The notes under the pieces were generated by a model. It saw nothing but the letters and a program-made list of their open reading frames with translations. It searched no databases and had not been told where the DNA came from. Source: Paludibaculum fermentans (GTDB lineage: Bacteria; Acidobacteriota; Terriglobia; Bryobacterales; Bryobacteraceae). From it: 64,000 bases of DNA. Location of the stretch: assembly GCF_015277775.1 (NCBI RefSeq), contig NZ_CP063849.1, positions 5,037,501-5,101,500 on the forward strand, in the 5' to 3' direction. The translations under genes were made by a program, and so were the position numbers. Below are positions 6,837 to 50,349 of this stretch, piece by piece (the stretch's first letter is position 1; each line of letters opens with the position of its first letter).

Positions 6837-8936
6837 TTACAGCCGGTACTTACCGACGATGGACTGCAACTGCGCCGCCATGCGGCTGAGTTCCGCCGCC
6901 GCGCGCTGGGTCTCCGTGGCGCCCTTCGTGGTGCTCTTGGCCGCATTGGCGACCCCGGAGATGTTGCTGGCGATGGATTCGGTTCCGCTGGCGGCGACTC
7001 CGACGCTGCGGCCGATCTCATTGGTCGTGACGGTCTGCTCTTCCACGGCGGAGGCGATGCTGTTGGAGATGTCGTTGACCTGGTTGATGATCTCGCTGAT
7101 CACGCCGATGGCCTTGACGGCATCCCTGGTGCTGGTCTGGATGGCATCGATCTTGCCGCCGATTTCTTCCGTGGCCTTGGCGGTCTGCTTGGCCAGTTCC
7201 TTCACCTCGTTGGCGACAACCGCGAAACCCTTGCCGGCTTCTCCGGCGCGGGCCGCCTCGATGGTCGCGTTCAAAGCCAGCAGGTTGGTTTGCTGAGCTA
7301 TGGAGGTGATTACCTTAATTACCTTGCCGATCTCCTGGCTGGAGCCGCCCAGGCGGTTGACGGTGTCGTTTGTCGACTGTGCCACGTTCACGGCGTTTTT
7401 GGCGACGCGCGCGGCCTCGTTGGCGTTCTTGGCGATCTCGCGGATGGAAGCCTGCATCTGCTCGGCTCCGGCGGCCACGGCGCTGACGCTGCGCGACACT
7501 TCGCCGCTGGCTCCGGCGACGATCTCGGCCTGGGTTGCGGTCTCCTCGGCGTTGCCGGCCATCTGGTGGCTGACGGCGGTGAGTTCTTCCGACGAGGACG
7601 CCACGGTCTGCGTGCTCTGCGAGAAGCTGCGCATGTTCTGGTGCAGGTCCTGCGCCATGCGGTTGATGTCGTCCTTCAGGCGGGCGTAGTCGCCGCGATA
7701 GGCGCCTTCGACACGGGCGGTGAGGTCGTTCTGGGCGATGCGGGCCAGCACGGCCGAAGCTTCGTTGAGCGGTTCGATCACCGCGTCGAGCGTCTGGTTG
7801 AAGCCCTGCGCTACTTTCCGGAAATCGCCTTTGTGCTTGTCCACGTCGGCGCGTTTGCTCAGATGTCCCTGAACCGCGGCTTCGGCCAGTGCGAGCGAAT
7901 CCGCGATGAGGAGGTTCAGCGGAGTGACGATGGCGTCGAGCGTCGAGTTGAACCCGGTGACAATTTTGCGGAAGTCGCCGCGATGCACGCTGGCATCGGC
8001 GCGGACATCCAGCCGCAGGTTGGCGCCGGCGTCGGCGAGCTTGTCGACATCCACCATCAGCCGTTGGAGGTTGCGGCGAACTTCCTCAATGGTCTCGTTG
8101 ATGAACGCCTTTTTGCCGGGGAAGCGCTCCAGGGACGCCTCAAAGTTGCCCTTGCCGAATTCGGCGATACACGCCATGGCCTTCTTCTTGACGGCGATGT
8201 GGCCGCCGACCATTTCGTTGACGCCGCGGGCCATTTCCAGGTAGGCACCCGCGAACTGATCTTCCGGGATCGCCACGTCGATGTCGCCCTTAATGTGCTC
8301 TTCCGACATGTGCTTCATCTCCTTGATGAAGCGGAAGAGCGGCTGGGCAATGGCGTCGAGAATGGCATTGACGCCTTCGATGCGAAGGCGGGCGACTTCG
8401 GTCGCTCCAGCCAGGTTCGTGTCCAGGCGGGTGGAGAGCTCCGAGCGCTGCTGGGCAGCGGCCACCCGGGCTACCTCCTCGTGCACCACGAAATCTTCCT
8501 CGGCCGACGGGTCGAAGATCTGGCAAACGCCGACGACTTCACCCGACTCGTCGAACCACGGGACTGAATGCACCTTCAGATGGAGGGCCCTGCCTCTCAC
8601 CTGGGCGCAGGCGATGGTGGTCGCCGGCTGGCGGGTTCTCATCGCGTTTGAAGCGGAGCAGGTGCCCTGGCGGCAGGCGGGAATATCGAATAGATCCCAG
8701 ACCTTTAGGCCAGCGCACTCATCCACTCTCCGTCCGCCCAGCCGGGCCGCTTCCTGATTGATGATCTGGATCGTGTGGTATTTGTCCGCCATGACCAGCG
8801 GAAGCGGAAAGTTATCAAAGAACACTCGCTTCGCTGCGTCGGTGGCCGCCGCTTCCGGCCTGGTTAGTACCGCGGAACCCGTTTGGCCTCCAAACTGGTT
8901 GCCGAGACTTCTACTATCGTCAAATGCTCGTTCCAT
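6837..8936 (-). CDS. Soluble chemoreceptor (MCP) with N-terminal PAS and HAMP-like repeats
   Basis: A 699-residue receptor with no membrane segment, so probably a cytoplasmic sensor. A PAS domain occupies about 40-150 ([19 protein letters not shown]) and contains a Cys pair in PACRQGTCS. Several HAMP-like helical units follow ([26 protein letters not shown]). The signalling hairpin has the [19 protein letters not shown] tip and the protein ends KYRL. GGAGGAG is correctly spaced before ATG 8936. The last 300 residues are nearly the same as in the membrane receptor at 2197-5658. The gene sits between cheW and the short cheR. Confidence 0.96.
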
Positions 8937-9005
8937 TACCGCTCTCCTCCACTCCTACTTCGTGGCTTGCGACCTCGAACTGATTCTCCAAATCAGGGGC
9001 ACCGG

Positions 9006-44456: not shown

Positions 44457-45707
44457 TCAACTCGCAAGCTCGGCCCTGCGCTCCTGAACCCCGCTGCCCT
44501 TCACTGGCGCCATCGCCGGGAAGTGCCGTTTCAGGCGCAGGAAATGTTTCTCGATCAGATGCCACGACAGCAGCGCGATGCCGTAGGTGACCGCCACGCC
44601 CAGCGCCTTCGAGGCGCCCCACAACAGGACCTTGCCCTCCACCGGGAGCGGAACCGCCAACTCCATCAGCAGGCTGTTCTGCAGATTCGAAATTGGAAAA
44701 TGGAAGACGTACGCCGCATAGGAGTACATCCCCAGCGACATCAGGAACGGCCGCCGGAGCTGGGTGGAAATCCAACTGCTTGATCCGGATTCGACATAGG
44801 CATGAAACACCAGGCACGCGTAGAGAATGCCAAAGGCGGTGAACCCGGCTGTGCCCATGAGCGCGGTGTCGTGACTCGGATTCCTCGTGATCGCCAGGAC
44901 AGCCAGCAGCAGCGCGGCGCCGCCGGCCGCGATCTGCCCCAACCGGCGTTTCACCTTCGCCCGCCAGGCCTCGTTTCGAACCGCCAGCGCGGTCAATCCA
45001 CCCAAGGCAAGAGGCTCGAGCCGGAAAGGAGTGAACCCGTAGAGAACACCCGGGTGCGAGGCATTGAAGGGCACAAAGGCGATCCGTAATGCGAACGACA
45101 GTGTCATGACTCCGAGGCAGACGGCCCACATCCGCTCCCGCTTCACCAGGAAGACGACAGCCGGCCAGACCAGGTAATACTGCTCCTCGATGGCCAGCGA
45201 CCAGAGATGATTCAGCCCACTGTTATCTTTCCCGAGCGGGCCCAGCCAGTTCGCCGAATACAGCCAGTACCAAAGCTCGGCCGAACTGTCGGAGGTGAGC
45301 CACAGCCCCCGGCTGTGCGCCAGCGGCAGCACGAGGTGGAAATAGGCGAAGACGGCGATCAGGTACAGCGGGAAGATCCGCAGCGCCCGTCTGGCATAGA
45401 ACGACGAGAAGTAGTTGGTAGACCAGCGTGTATCCAGCAGAATCCCCGTGATCAGGAACCCAGAGAGAACAAAGAACAGGTCGACGCCCGACCAGCCCAA
45501 CGCGAACGGCCCGGTGAGGATCTTTGGAACACCTTCCGGCCGTGCTCCGAAATGCAGCAGCAGCACCATCAGGATGGCGATGCCACGAACCCCGTTCAGC
45601 TCCGGAACGATCCGTTCGCTGGCCCGGCCCGGTGCGCGCGGGGCGGCCTCTGCCTCGTTCGAACCCGATTGCCCTGCCGTCGTGGAGTTCAGAATTCTCG
45701 CCTGCAT
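44457..45707 (-). CDS. Acyltransferase family 3 (OafA/YrhL-like) O-acetyltransferase
   Basis: A 416-residue integral membrane enzyme with about ten helices that acylates glycans. The signature N-terminus is PELNGVRGIAILMVLLLHF, then GWSGVDLFFVLSGFLITGIL and RRALRIFPLY. SLAIEEQYYLVWP holds the conserved Glu-Glu-Gln-Tyr. The first 33 residues are a polar, non-membrane extension. In the direction of transcription it is the first polysaccharide gene after the terminase-like insertion. The promoter for it, if separate from the operon start, is not evident. Confidence 0.93.
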   Translation of the reverse strand: MQARILNSTTAGQSGSNEAEAAPRAPGRASERIVPELNGVRGIAILMVLLLHFGARPEGVPKILTGPFALGWSGVDLFFVLSGFLITGILLDTRWSTNYFSSFYARRALRIFPLYLIAVFAYFHLVLPLAHSRGLWLTSDSSAELWYWLYSANWLGPLGKDNSGLNHLWSLAIEEQYYLVWPAVVFLVKRERMWAVCLGVMTLSFALRIAFVPFNASHPGVLYGFTPFRLEPLALGGLTALAVRNEAWRAKVKRRLGQIAAGGAALLLAVLAITRNPSHDTALMGTAGFTAFGILYACLVFHAYVESGSSSWISTQLRRPFLMSLGMYSYAAYVFHFPISNLQNSLLMELAVPLPVEGKVLLWGASKALGVAVTYGIALLSWHLIEKHFLRLKRHFPAMAPVKGSGVQERRAELAS

Positions 45708-45907
45708 CCCGTGCCTGCCCTACTCCGCGCCGCCGTCCCCTGCCCTCGCCGGAAGGCCATTTGCCGGGCTCCGATTTGGCGGTCACCACAACTCAAAGTA
45801 TTTTTTCTCCCCGCAACTAACTGAAAAACAAGAACCTGCAAAATCCAGAGCCGCTTCCCTGAGCCGATCTTTCAAAACGTGGTCTACCGTTTCGAGCGAG
45901 GTGAAAC
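45708..45907. other. 200-bp divergent gap between acyltransferase and TerS-like genes
   Basis: The region is locally A+T-rich (a T-run near 45802 and an A-run near 45822), unlike the coding flanks. GAGGTGAA lies five bases before the plus-strand start at 45908. No clear sigma-70 pair was found on either strand. It may mark one edge of an insertion. Confidence 0.4.
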
Positions 45908-46630
45908 ATGTTGAAACTGACGAGATCCGAACAGGCTCGAATCAACGGGGCGCGGTCGCGCGGCCCTGTCACGGCGGAGGGCAAGTCTCGTTCCGCCCAC
46001 AACTCGTATAAGCACGGCCGCTACGCCAGGCCAGGGGCTGGAGCGGTCCACACGGTTCTGCTCGGCAACGAGGACGCAGGCGGGTTCAACGATCTCCTCG
46101 CCCGCCGCATGCAGGACCTGCTGCCGACCAGTTCCTTTGAGATCACTCTGGTCCGCGAACTCTGTGCCATCGAGTGGAAACTCGACCGCATGCAGGCGGT
46201 CGAAACCCGTGCGCTCAATCTGCAGATCACGGTCGAATCCGACGCCATCCGCAATGCCGCCGGCTCGCTCCGCGGAGTTGCTCCCATCGACACCATCTGC
46301 GCGGCCTATGCCGGGCTTCTTGGCTCTTCGCCCCTGCTCACGCACGCGGCCCGCGAGTTCACCCGCCTGCAGAAGGCGCGCCGCGATGCCCTGAATGCGT
46401 TCGTCTCGCTCAGGAAGCATCCGAAAATCTTCAAACAATCCCAGGAACCGTCTGTTTTTCAAGAACTTGACTTCTGGAACGAACCCGCCAATCAACAGCT
46501 CGAACCCACTGCGCAGCAGCCGGCTGCGGCGCCGGGCCCTCTCGAACCCGCGGCTGGAACCATGGCGGACACCCCGCCCGCGCGGAGCAGTGCTGAACCG
46601 GGGCGGATCGAAGGGAGCCCGGCCGCCTGA
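45908..46630 (+). CDS. Small-terminase-like 'GPxTxEGK...KHG' protein
   Basis: A 240-residue protein of unknown function. Residues 1-40 (NGARSRGPVTAEGKSRSAHN, then SYKHGRYA) match a motif common in paralogous proteins of Acidobacteria and Planctomycetes. The N-A/S-x-K-H-G core also occurs near the N-terminus of many phage terminase small subunits. A helical middle (ELCAIEWKLDRMQAVETRAL) is followed by a Pro/Ala-rich tail. The ribosome site GAGGTG precedes ATG 45908. Only 15 bp separate it from a terminase-type ATPase, so a DNA-packaging or related DNA-translocating pair is inferred from context. Confidence 0.7.
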   Translation: MLKLTRSEQARINGARSRGPVTAEGKSRSAHNSYKHGRYARPGAGAVHTVLLGNEDAGGFNDLLARRMQDLLPTSSFEITLVRELCAIEWKLDRMQAVETRALNLQITVESDAIRNAAGSLRGVAPIDTICAAYAGLLGSSPLLTHAAREFTRLQKARRDALNAFVSLRKHPKIFKQSQEPSVFQELDFWNEPANQQLEPTAQQPAAAPGPLEPAAGTMADTPPARSSAEPGRIEGSPAA

Positions 46631-46645
46631 CGCGGCCGCCTTGGC

Positions 46646-47536
46646 ATGCCCTCCTGGATACACCTGACGCAAAACGTGGAGACGGCCGGACAGGCCCGGG
46701 ATGCTGTCCTCAGGCGCTTCCACACCAGGCCGAAGCATGGCCGGAGTGTGTCTGCCGCCAACCCCGGCAGCCTCATCGTGCCGCCCGCCAGCCTGACGCA
46801 ATGGGCTACGGAATCGCTCGGCTTCCAACCCTTCCCGGCGCAGGCCGAGATCCTGGACTGCCGCGATTCGCACGTCATGCTCTGCTGCTCGCGCCAGTTC
46901 GGGAAGACCACGCTCACCGCGCTGAAGGTCGCGCACCACGCGCTCACCACACCCGGGACCAGCGTGGTCATTGGGTCGCCCAGCGAGCGGCAGTCCGTCC
47001 TGCTTGTGCGCAAGGCCGTGAACTTCCTCAAGACCGCGCAGGTCGCCACCAGGAGTGTAGGCGGCGGCACATACGGGGTCCGCCTGCCCAACGGCAGTTG
47101 CATCTTCGCCTTGCCGATGAAGGAGGTCACCACTCGTGGTTTCGACGCGGTCTCGCTGCTCATCTTCGAGGAAGCCGCCTATGTTCCGGATGTCTTTTAC
47201 CATATGGCGACGGCCTTTCAGGCCATCGTGCCCAATCGCATTCTTTGGCTTCTGTCCACGCCCGCGGGACAGTCCGGCTTCTTCTACGAGGAATGGGCAG
47301 ACCAGGCCCGTACCCATTGGCGCCGTTTTCTCGCCCCCGCCTCGCAATCGCCGCTGATTGACGCGGAGTTTCTCGCCAGGGAGCGCGTCCGCAAGGGCGA
47401 CGCGGTCTTCCGCCGCGAATATGAGTGCGAGTTTGTGGCCGACAGGTTACAGATCATTGGCCGGGAACTCTGGGATAGCGCGCTCGATCCGGACGACACA
47501 CCGTTCAATGGAGGTAGACCGCTGTGGCCCGACTGA
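46646..47536 (+). CDS. Terminase large subunit-like ATPase, C-terminal nuclease domain missing
   Basis: A 296-residue protein (or 263 if it starts at GTG 46748). The ATPase domain is clear: adenine-binding QPFPAQAEIL, Walker A CCSRQFGKTTLTA, Walker B LLIFEEAAY and the coupling motif ILWLLSTPAGQSGF. The protein stops near residue 296. Phage large terminases are usually 450-600 residues, with a nuclease domain (conserved Asp residues) in the second half; none is found here, and the following 250 bp do not encode one in any frame I read. It is therefore truncated or an ATPase-only form. No other phage genes are nearby. Confidence 0.78.
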   Translation: MPSWIHLTQNVETAGQARDAVLRRFHTRPKHGRSVSAANPGSLIVPPASLTQWATESLGFQPFPAQAEILDCRDSHVMLCCSRQFGKTTLTALKVAHHALTTPGTSVVIGSPSERQSVLLVRKAVNFLKTAQVATRSVGGGTYGVRLPNGSCIFALPMKEVTTRGFDAVSLLIFEEAAYVPDVFYHMATAFQAIVPNRILWLLSTPAGQSGFFYEEWADQARTHWRRFLAPASQSPLIDAEFLARERVRKGDAVFRREYECEFVADRLQIIGRELWDSALDPDDTPFNGGRPLWPD

Positions 47537-47787
47537 AGTGCGTCCGGCAGTCCGGGCCGGAATCCTGTTGCGCCATCCAGGCTGCACTTGGCCTGGCATG
47601 CGACCAGCCGCTGGTGCCGGCCGGTCTCGTTCAGCGCGCGCCGTCATGGTGCGAGAGGCACGGTCCATCGGGGACCGCCTCCTGCGCGCCTCGGCTACCT
47701 GGCCCTTGCGCCTGTTGCAGGCTGCCTCGCCGGAAACGTGCGGCGATGCCCTTACCGGGTCAGATCGGCAGCGCGCTATTGGCCTCT
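47537..47787. other. 251-bp gap between terminase-like gene and wzc
   Basis: No gene is supported. It is open in two plus-strand frames, but the translations are Arg/Pro/Cys-rich and show no nuclease motif. It may be the decayed remains of a terminase C-terminus or simply the insertion boundary. Confidence 0.4.
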
Positions 47788-50349
47788 CTACGCGCTCTCG
47801 CCCTCGGTCGTCGGCCCGTAGTAACGCTTGTAGTACTTGCCGTAGTGGCCGTCGTAGTAGCCGTAGTAGCCGCCCGGGGACTGCTTCGGATTCCAGTCGT
47901 TCAGCACCGTGCCCACGACATGGATACCGTCATCCCGCAGCCGGCCGCGCGCCGCAATCGCAGCGTCACGCGTCGTCTGGTTCGCGCGCACCACCAGCAC
48001 AACGCCGCTGGTCAGCCGCCCGATCACACGTGCATCCGGGATCTGCAGCATCGGAGGCGTGTCAATGAAGATCATGTCGAACTCGTCCTGCAGGTGCTCC
48101 AACAGCTCCGGCAGTTGCTGGGAGTACAGCAGGTTCGTCGCGCCGGCCACCCCAGGTCCGCTTGGCAGGACGTACAGCCCGTCCACCTTCGTCTCCACGA
48201 CCATCCCGCTCAGCAGGGTCGCGAGTTCGCTGCTCAACAGCGCCGGCTTGTGGCCGCCGGCTCCATTCAGGGACTGCTCATCGCCCGGCAACTCCGTGGC
48301 AACTTCCCTGTGCACTTCACCAGTGAAGGCGCTCGCCGCGACGCCATTGGTCCTGCCGTTGCCCCGCGAATCGCCATTCCGGTAGGGACGGCCATAACGC
48401 GACGCGGTGCCGTTATGGTTGTTGCCCCGCAGGATCGTGGTCAGGCCTCGCTCGTTCACCAGCCCGAAGATGGAATGGATACGCGGCTTCCTCGTATCGG
48501 CGTCGATCAGCAGCACCCGCTGCCCCGTCTCCGCCAGCGCGATCGCCAGGTTGGTCACCACCGTTGTCTTGCCTTCACCCGGCGAGGGGCTTGTCACCAC
48601 CAGCAGTTTCGGTCTCCGGCCATCCTGCCCCGTGAAGAGAATGCTGGTCAGCGTCGCCCGGAAGCTCTCCGCCAGCAGACTCGGCTTGCGCTGGTAGGTG
48701 ACCAGTTCCAGTCTCTGAATGTCCTCATCGCCCGTGTCGTCGGAGCTGTCGTCCTTCTTCTTGTCGCTCCGTCCGAAGTACTTCATCCGCTTACCCGTCA
48801 TCGACGATTCGGCCGGGATCATGCCCAACTCGGGGACGTTCAGGTAGTACGCGATGTCCGCCGGTTCAGTCAGGGTCCGGTTAGCCCGGTCCGTCATGAC
48901 GACGAAGGCCACGCCCAGAAACAGGCCGGTCACCAAGCCCAGTGCCGCGTTCGTCGCGAAGCTGGGCTTGTAGGGCTTGGTCGGGATCTTGGCCGGATCG
49001 ACCACGCGCACGTTGCTCGCCTTCAGGGCGCTCGAGATCGCGCTCTCCTTCACCCTCTGCAGCATCGAGTCGTAGAGCTGCCTGTTGGTGTCAGACTCAC
49101 GCTTCAGGATATTGTAGGTGATCGCCTTGTCGCCCTGGTCCGTCACCAGCCCCGCCTGCTGCCGGTAGTCCGCCTCCAGCAGCTTTTCGCGGCGCAGCGC
49201 CTCGTCGTACTCGTTCTTGATGCGCTTCAGGATGTCGGTGCGCTGCCGCTCCAACCGCCTGGTCACAGTGACGATCTGCGCTTCCACCCGCTTCACCTTT
49301 GGATTGTCCGAGGTGTACGTCTCCTCAAACTCGGCTTTTTGCCGCCGAAGGTCCGTCAGCCTCGTCTCATACTCCTGCAGGGTCTTGTCGTCCAGTACAT
49401 CGGGGAGTGTGTCCGATGGAGCAGTCGTCGCCATCTCCCACCGGCTCTGTTTTTGCACCCTGTCGGTCTGGGCTTTGGTCAGGGACTCCTGCACCTGCTT
49501 CAGCTTGTCGGTCGTGACGTTGGTCTTGTCGTCGGAGAACAGCAAGCCGTTCCGCCGCGCGTAGACCTGCAGCGCGTCCTCGCTGCGTTCCAGCTTGACC
49601 CTCATCTCGTCAATCTGCTTGGACAGGAACTCCCCGGTACGTTGCGACATCTTCCACCGGGCATCCATGTTCTGCTCGATGTACTCCTGGGTCAGCCTAT
49701 TGGCGAAATCGGTCGCCAGCCTGGGATCCGTCGAATCCACCAGAATCTCGACGATGCGCGTCTGCCCGCTGGCACGAACCTTCATGTCCCGCTGAGCCAT
49801 CTTGAGAGCCGCGGACTGGGCATCCGCCCCGCTGGGCTCCGGCAGGTTCAGGGCCCGGCGCCAAGCCGAGATCCGGCTCTTTCCGCGCCCCAGGTCAGAC
49901 ACTTCCTTTGCCTTGAACGACGCCACCACCCTGTCGAGCAGGCTCTCGCTTTGCAGGATCTTGATCTGCGTCTGGATGTCCGTCATCAGGTTCGACGTCC
50001 CGCCGTCGGCCACCTGCTGGACGTTCTTCATGTTCATGAAGTCCTGGTTCAGTTCCAGAATCTCCAGTGTCGTTTTGGCCTGGTAAACCGGCGTCTGCGG
50101 CAATGTCACCAATACCGCCAGCAGCAGCCCCAGCCCGGAGATCAGGATCAGAGTCCCTTTCCTCCGGCGCAGGATGCGCCAGTATTCGATCAGCCCTCCG
50201 TGGTCCGGCTCTTCCATCTCCGCCGGATAGCCAGTGTGTTGGAAACCCCGATCCCCCGCCGAATAGCCGGAGGCGTCGATTACCTGTTGTCTTGCGGGAA
50301 GGTTCATGCCACCCCGTCCTGTAGTGAATTCGCGATTCTGATCTTCCAT
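47788..50349 (-). CDS. wzc: Wzc-like polysaccharide co-polymerase with BY-kinase domain
   Basis: An 853-residue inner-membrane protein controlling chain length and export. The Wzz region has TM1 (about 66-83), a long periplasmic coiled-coil part and TM2 (about 467-485, ALGLVTGLFLGVAFVVM). The cytoplasmic kinase has Walker A TSPSPGEGKTT (586-596), Walker A' LLIDADTRKP and Walker B MIFIDTPPM. The tail contains nine tyrosines within residues 828-844, the autophosphorylation cluster. About 60 extra residues (642-700, Asn/Gly/Arg-rich) sit between Walker A' and B. A PHP phosphatase likely to reverse the modification is encoded at 16205-16969. It follows wza by 3 bp. Confidence 0.95.
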   Translation of the reverse strand: MEDQNREFTTGRGGMNLPARQQVIDASGYSAGDRGFQHTGYPAEMEEPDHGGLIEYWRILRRRKGTLILISGLGLLLAVLVTLPQTPVYQAKTTLEILELNQDFMNMKNVQQVADGGTSNLMTDIQTQIKILQSESLLDRVVASFKAKEVSDLGRGKSRISAWRRALNLPEPSGADAQSAALKMAQRDMKVRASGQTRIVEILVDSTDPRLATDFANRLTQEYIEQNMDARWKMSQRTGEFLSKQIDEMRVKLERSEDALQVYARRNGLLFSDDKTNVTTDKLKQVQESLTKAQTDRVQKQSRWEMATTAPSDTLPDVLDDKTLQEYETRLTDLRRQKAEFEETYTSDNPKVKRVEAQIVTVTRRLERQRTDILKRIKNEYDEALRREKLLEADYRQQAGLVTDQGDKAITYNILKRESDTNRQLYDSMLQRVKESAISSALKASNVRVVDPAKIPTKPYKPSFATNAALGLVTGLFLGVAFVVMTDRANRTLTEPADIAYYLNVPELGMIPAESSMTGKRMKYFGRSDKKKDDSSDDTGDEDIQRLELVTYQRKPSLLAESFRATLTSILFTGQDGRRPKLLVVTSPSPGEGKTTVVTNLAIALAETGQRVLLIDADTRKPRIHSIFGLVNERGLTTILRGNNHNGTASRYGRPYRNGDSRGNGRTNGVAASAFTGEVHREVATELPGDEQSLNGAGGHKPALLSSELATLLSGMVVETKVDGLYVLPSGPGVAGATNLLYSQQLPELLEHLQDEFDMIFIDTPPMLQIPDARVIGRLTSGVVLVVRANQTTRDAAIAARGRLRDDGIHVVGTVLNDWNPKQSPGGYYGYYDGHYGKYYKRYYGPTTEGESA

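Follow-up and report, generated by a model that had tools for sequence, protein, structure and literature searches.

A probable resident, capsid-less split-terminase cassette of Bryobacteraceae and its reduced copy in Paludibaculum fermentans

The large terminase subunit (TerL) of phages, as known from T4 gp17 and from the P74-26/G20c type (Terminase_6N), consists of an ATPase half and a RuvC-like nuclease half with conserved catalytic residues. In some tailed phages in IMG/VR (L117, L119, L120 and L123) the two halves are encoded by separate adjacent ORFs, which lie, as judged by eye, within an apparent virion (head) operon. Packaging genes of domesticated or parasitic character also reside in chromosomes, as gene transfer agents and phage satellites. 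An earlier survey of Acidobacteria counts terminases as virion-associated markers of prophages (PMC5900883); it gives Candidatus Solibacter usitatus two large terminases and Bryobacter aggregatus one, neither with a capsid or portal, and calls one prophage in each of them active (PMC5900883). Here we describe a unit of Bryobacteraceae that resembles phage TerL in having both halves with their catalytic residues conserved, and differs from it in being chromosomal, in being split mostly into two genes and in having no portal, capsid or tail gene alongside in the loci examined.

The window, by which we mean the whole analysed stretch of 64,000 nucleotides (positions 5,037,501-5,101,500 of the larger contig), comes from the 9.53-Mb genome (also given as 9.5 Mb) of P. 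fermentans. A preliminary description had pointed to two plus-strand genes interrupting a minus-strand polysaccharide locus, and this is indeed the arrangement: the neighbours, an Acyl_transf_3 protein gene (44457-45707) and a gene for a Wzz/GNVR/AAA_31 Wzc-type protein (47788-50349), both lie on the minus strand. The first gene of the pair, ORF1 (45908-46630, plus strand), encodes a protein of 240 residues with a basic N-terminal motif, a helical core and a proline-rich tail. The motif GPxTxEGK..N..KHG reported for it is present as GPVTAEGKSRSAHNSYKHG at residues 19-37 (45962..46018, plus strand), in columns conserved in both alignments of the family, which we refer to as KHG. ORF2 (46646-47536, plus strand) encodes 296 residues with a complete ATPase core and no fused nuclease. 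The extent of 45908-47787 originally assigned to the pair holds both genes, but its last ~250 bp are non-coding, since the 251 bp between the ATPase stop and the wzc stop (47537..47787), where a nuclease gene is missing, contain no detectable nuclease remnant (best blastn match to relatives' nuclease stretches, E 0.49).

That ORF2 is the ATPase half of a TerL is supported by matches to Terminase_6N in Pfam (PF03237, E 1.7e-7) and to large-terminase families in PHROG (E 9e-32 and 3e-28). The claim of a full terminase-type ATPase core lacking its nuclease half holds, as ORF2 has a Walker A motif (RQFGKT), a Walker-B-like motif (LLIFEE) and an ST coupling motif (S204 T205). Within RQFGKTT (46892..46912, plus strand) the residues R83, Q84, G86 and K87 are invariant in 22 aligned rows, as is the catalytic E176 within LLIFEE (47156..47173, plus strand), so that the window copy carries R83, Q84, G86, K87, E176, S204 and T205, the residues by which TerL is recognised as an ASCE ATPase. 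Against solved structures, the profile of the ATPases matches phage TerL 4zni (E 6e-19) and T4 gp17 (E 2e-14 to 3e-13), and that of the nucleases encoded by relatives matches the TerL nuclease 5m1f (E 2e-9). Walker A occurs in 87 of 87 ATPases, a count that is partly by design because one search pattern included it. Seven of 71 nucleases are gapped at a position of the Asp triad and stand outside the count; among the 64 that are ungapped there, 63 have the triad complete. This RuvC/RNase H-like nuclease with its Asp triad is absent from the window copy and present in relatives, mostly as a gene of its own.

The recurring unit consists of a KHG gene, a TerL ATPase gene and a separate TerL RuvC-like nuclease gene, and the window pair is a reduced copy of it. 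At E<=1e-10, 37 of 151 relatives have the ATPase, 36 of them belonging to the window's own family (91 genomes, G000-G090, with G000 the window genome), and an even draw of 297 genomes from the phylum gave five matches at E<=1e-30, one of them the window genome itself; the ATPase is thus rare outside the family. Across 84,980 species genomes, 355 relatives of the ATPase were detected, and the best 80 of these come from Acidobacteria-type records except for one titled Nevskia soli and one Verrucomicrobiales. We dropped 24 of the 80 loci, which had less than 1.6 kb on one side, and kept the 56 with at least 1.6 kb on both. Among these 56, drawn from the best 80 of 355, a nuclease lies downstream of the ATPase in 49 (36 as a separate ORF, 13 fused), and a KHG gene lies within 1.5 kb of the ATPase in 26 (16 on the same strand, 10 on the opposite one), against ~1.3% expected by chance, a rough figure that uses the KHG density of the window genome only and takes the loci as independent. 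A possible nuclease start within 10 bp of the ATPase stop, found in 20 of the 35 split loci measured, fits a coupled operon and not sequencing errors.

The association also appears at the level of whole genomes. At least one KHG gene was scored in all 37 ATPase-positive genomes and in 45 of the 114 ATPase-negative ones, and within the family in 36 of 36 positive and 38 of 55 negative genomes (Fisher p 7e-5); the number of KHG genes counted in any one genome is capped at 19 scored candidates. KHG is not obligatory, since 30 of the 56 loci have none within 1.5 kb. One locus of the window genome, L036, has ahead of its ATPase a gene that we call UP, a variant of 155-157 residues which lacks the KHG motif and whose profile matches KHG proteins. 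The expectation that the pair would turn up at many unrelated sites is supported by the 26 loci, in both orientations and with various flanks, and the contrary outcome, that the two genes never co-occur elsewhere, fails outright. Only the notion of a two-gene unit needs amending: the linkage of KHG and TerL stands, but a third gene belongs to the unit, the nuclease, which is present in the ortholog of the window copy and missing from the window copy itself. A literature search did not find such a cassette named in titles or abstract openings.

Comparison within the genome and between matching sites shows how the window copy departs from this plan. In the window genome the ATPase is matched four times and the nuclease three times; at the other three loci (L035, L036 and L037) the gene after the ATPase is a TerL nuclease of 208-220 residues with the motifs GLDLG..VDA(T/S)GVG..DDM, and the window copy is the only one of the four without it. 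In the same-genus genome G006, at L080, KHG, ATPase and nuclease (8361-8990) lie beside wzc, in the same place and orientation as in the window; G002 has other genes in the 1.5 kb that follow wzc. At a second site, beside an efflux operon, all three genes are present in the window genome and KHG alone in G006, with one flank in common. A third case comes from a single metagenome bin, in which L260 lacks the nuclease and L267 has it between ATPase and KHG. Matching sites therefore differ in completeness, with all three genes, KHG and ATPase, or KHG alone, and since the wzc site, the efflux site and L260/L267 each show one, reduced copies recur. Given that 49 of 56 relatives have the nuclease, the simpler reading is that reduced copies arose by loss rather than by gain. 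Differing repetitive stretches separate ATPase and nuclease at L080:8991-9591 and L035:7659-8208, and in a G006 cassette what appears by eye to be a transposase-like gene lies between the two (L082:10475-12181).

The KHG protein is harder to place. ORF1 has no match in Pfam, PHROGs or NCBIfam at E<=1. A set of 33 KHG proteins found no small-terminase (TerS) family in PHROGs, only four weak and unnamed hits of one member each (best E 7e-4), and a profile search of the PDB returned no TerS, its top matches being ribosomal uS19 and Bak at E 0.34 or worse. Two KHG proteins had no match in 50,697 phage records, nor one in IMG/VR. The identification of KHG as a small terminase by sequence was therefore rejected, and the profile search against small-terminase families proposed in the preliminary description came back empty in Pfam, PHROGs and NCBIfam. 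The AlphaFold2 model is all-helical, with a mean pLDDT of 94 over the core (residues 46-178; 46043..46441, plus strand), and Foldseek gave no match at E<=0.001 for the full model (PDB, BFVD) or for the core (PDB). The helical arrangement of the core may resemble that of the HK97 small terminase (6z6e, 8pop), which, among the PDB chains listed, aligns with the full model at Z 6.8 (rmsd 3.8, 91 residues) and with the core at Z 7.5 (rmsd 2.9, 86 residues), values level with those of unrelated helical proteins and thus within the noise for helical bundles. Unlike HK97 TerS, with which no sequence similarity was found, KHG has the GPxTxEGK..N..KHG N-terminus and a proline-rich C-terminal tail. The position of the gene, adjoining TerL in the window and within 1.5 kb of it in 26 of 56 loci, is that of a TerS gene, and together with the weak HK97-like fold match it suggests that KHG may be a small terminase.

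Upstream of the KHG genes of cassettes lies a conserved leader, and solo KHG genes have a related one. In the window the block is GGTCACCACAACTCAAAGTATTTTTT (45781..45806, plus strand), ~100-127 bp ahead of the KHG gene. The 26-nt pattern, allowing three mismatches or fewer, has five sites in the genome and none for a reversed control, and four of the five precede KHG genes. The fifth (L079; G000:C1:7431128) precedes, as judged by eye, an HU/IHF-like ORF and then a TIR-like one, with no KHG gene. A role as transposon end or pac site was considered and not upheld, because the leader also precedes this HU-like gene, which makes a promoter or operator equally likely.

KHG genes are not confined to cassettes. 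The family has 30 matches in the window genome and is present in 82 of 151 relatives; it is often solo, and abundant also in genomes without the ATPase. These KHG proteins of Acidobacteria belong to the same family as that of the window, but unlike it most of those in the window genome are solo, without a terminase, and Pfam has no family either for the window protein or for one solo protein. In the window genome (G000), 26 further KHG genes are scattered (L009-L034) with no terminase match adjoining; many have 80-90% DNA identity, a common leader (hairpin GCCGGC..GCCGGC) and common GAAACGAAGCC words after the stop. In L021, L029, L030, L031 and L034 the KHG gene follows a UP gene, called at 132-157 residues, so that the UP family is common to solo KHG loci and to L036, where it precedes the terminase ATPase. 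Repeats ~147 bp apart lie downstream of the solo genes of L029 and L030, and ORFs resembling, by eye, REP-associated (Y1) transposases adjoin those of L024 (338-694) and L025 (690-911), on the KHG strand. The solo proteins of L014 and L016 end in a CPCGSG..Y..CCG zinc motif, which we take to be SEC-C-like, and downstream of the KHG gene of L020 lie two further copies of its 3' part.

In a tree of the ATPase domain, built with the best 22 of 82 phage rows, one branch (SH-aLRT 96) separates 87 chromosomal from 22 phage rows. A second tree under a mixture model, from which 13 further rows, 11 from phages and 2 chromosomal, had been removed as long or near-duplicate and in which the chromosomal rows were thinned to 50, separates these from 11 phage rows with branch support of 98/93. 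The ATPases of the split-TerL phages, next to whose terminases no KHG gene was found, fall outside the chromosomal clade. As far as the sampled phages allow a judgement, the trees are consistent with the terminase having passed once from phage to chromosome and then spread. In the pairs tested, dN/dS was 0.13-0.28 for the ATPase (0.13 for the window copy against that of L080), 0.065-0.26 for the nuclease, 0.31-0.41 for KHG and 0.099 for wzc, several of these ratios being rough because synonymous divergence in those pairs is near or above 1. On these ratios, purifying selection acts on the gene pairs tested, and the low values together with the intact triad speak for working enzymes. The looser constraint on KHG may be that of a recognition part under changing demand.

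The reading that we favour, with a probability of roughly 0.58, is that of a resident, capsid-less split-terminase cassette of Bryobacteraceae that processes DNA and occasionally disperses. KHG, the probable small-terminase analogue, would bind DNA and load the ATPase ring onto it, the ATPase would translocate the DNA and the nuclease would cut it, much as at the start of phage packaging but minus portal and capsid, and copies of the cassette would occasionally disperse. The window copy might borrow the nuclease of the other three cassettes, or might merely bind and translocate. The weakest step concerns the role, which may be to process or destroy foreign DNA and be kept by selection; conflict with foreign DNA is put first because the enzymes are intact, the recognition part is the fastest-evolving and the copies are diverse. 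It is possible, and we put it forward tentatively, that KHG, a large and fast-evolving family, selects DNA for the split terminase to translocate and cut, and that this serves for restriction-like defence or drives the system's own dispersal, in which case solo KHG genes would be a recognition repertoire or non-autonomous offspring. The odds of the favoured reading overlap with those of the first three alternatives discussed below, because these differ in the role that they assign more than in the parts.

The occurrence of copies in unrelated flanks is explained no less well by self-mobilisation. Mu, Tn7 and IS21 rely for their movement on an ATPase paired with an RNase H transposase, and a terminase-powered element in which KHG marks its own DNA, and the ATPase and RNase H-fold nuclease copy or cut and paste the cassette, would fit both the parts list and the many unrelated sites. 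One metagenome bin has three contigs with the same 2.6-kb unit, KHG divergent from ATPase-nuclease, in unrelated flanks; the copies share 75-90% identity over their main pieces, and their similarity ends within ~30 bp inside the nuclease end on one side and, on the other, 17-75 bp beyond the stop of KHG. Two ATPase-nuclease copies of another bin (L227/L244) likewise lie in unrelated flanks. Over 1.5 kb, L099 of G002 and L036 have 87% identity, with no further similarity in the stretches compared, and 837 bp of L038 are common at 94% to the KHG part of L035; G002 and G006 have no KHG in the 1.5 kb before gltX, but the other flank differs. L036 and L082 have a neighbour in common. We excluded L201/L202 as evidence of ends because their similarity continues to the contig end. 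Allowing for possible errors of metagenome binning, such copies in unrelated flanks indicate that copies move or get copied, and to this extent the mobile cassette of the preliminary description stands, without the conserved flanking repeats looked for in the three copies. Against a mobile element proper, the three 2.6-kb copies have no terminal inverted repeats in common, their end alignments show by eye no target-site duplication, and no clean empty site was found, the compared flanks being too rearranged and L294 and L317/L318 having one matching flank each. The four copies of the window genome are judged old, the others being 43-72% identical to that of the window, some remain at matching sites in other species, and ATPase-only and KHG-only units persist. 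We regard such an element as somewhat unlikely.

Less likely again is an anti-phage packaging decoy, in which KHG and ATPase would jam or redirect the terminase of an infecting phage with no need for catalysis. Loci that are multi-copy, diverse and variable would suit a decoy, as would the existence of split-TerL phages, and the nuclease-less window ATPase is constrained (the ratio of 0.13 given above). Further nuclease-less KHG loci exist (L198, L204, L207 and L260), to which that ratio, being that of the window copy, does not extend. A decoy would have no need, however, of the nuclease triad kept in 63 of 64 sequences, and the two KHG proteins compared with phage records had no counterpart there. 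Defence genes do lie near some cassettes: among the matches listed, PADLOC found Cas1, Cas10, HsdM/HsdS, BrxB, a cyclase and DarG near KHG-positive cassettes and HsdM/HsdS, Cas6 and mad near KHG-negative ones, in tables that count members per family and not loci. The controls, 42 proteins from the window and 52 distal ones from cassette contigs, also match defence families (Cas1, Cas4, Cas5 and IetA among the matches listed), and we therefore dropped the defence neighbourhood as evidence of a role.

The surroundings of the cassette bear on helper-dependent packaging, in which host DNA or the cassette's own would be directed into the capsids of a co-resident phage or of a dispersed gene transfer agent. 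Each of the three components either belongs to the packaging machinery or occupies the position of such a component, and of eight cassette genomes searched for two virion families, Phage_capsid (PF05065) and Phage_portal (PF04860), G085 has both and G006 the capsid; the other six, that of the window included, lack both. In 23 loci, viewed by eye over up to 10 kb on each side, the matches listed are mostly host-type genes with few transposase- or integrase-like ones. A PHROG scan of up to five neighbour proteins per locus (119 of 138 and 138 of 174, 257 in all, from 56 loci) gave no portal, head (capsid) or tail family among the matches listed (25 of 74 and 25 of 99 families), with two members matching integrases in each of the two sets. 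Among 306 other proteins from the neighbourhoods of the 80 loci, clustering revealed six groups spanning 3-6 loci, which resemble common host proteins, and no recurrent integrase or regulatory/replication module of the kind found in a PICI-like satellite; nor did a virion gene recur beside the cassette among the neighbour matches listed. The cassette is thus like gene transfer agents and phage satellites in that packaging genes reside in the chromosome, but unlike them in that the window genome lacks the tested capsid and portal families and no integrase or replication module recurs, and helper-dependent packaging seems improbable to us. The non-phage setting first proposed for the pair is upheld in the loci examined, where the pair does not occur only inside complete prophages. 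Prophage relics, in which terminase genes, phage genes after all and prophage markers in the survey cited above, happened to survive last, were already disfavoured and are very improbable, given one chromosomal clade, mostly open frames, low dN/dS, linkage to a KHG family without a match in the phage records searched, and the copying of whole units.

For the family, a resident split-terminase cassette has a practical consequence. Terminase genes serve as evidence of prophages, and prophage counts in the window's family may be inflated, because many of its terminases form a separate chromosomal lineage with no virion genes found alongside. If the cassette does work free of a capsid, a DNA motor that ranks among the strongest known would have been repurposed, and its catalytic residues, together with the natural derivatives that lack the nuclease or retain KHG only, would make that repurposing directly testable.
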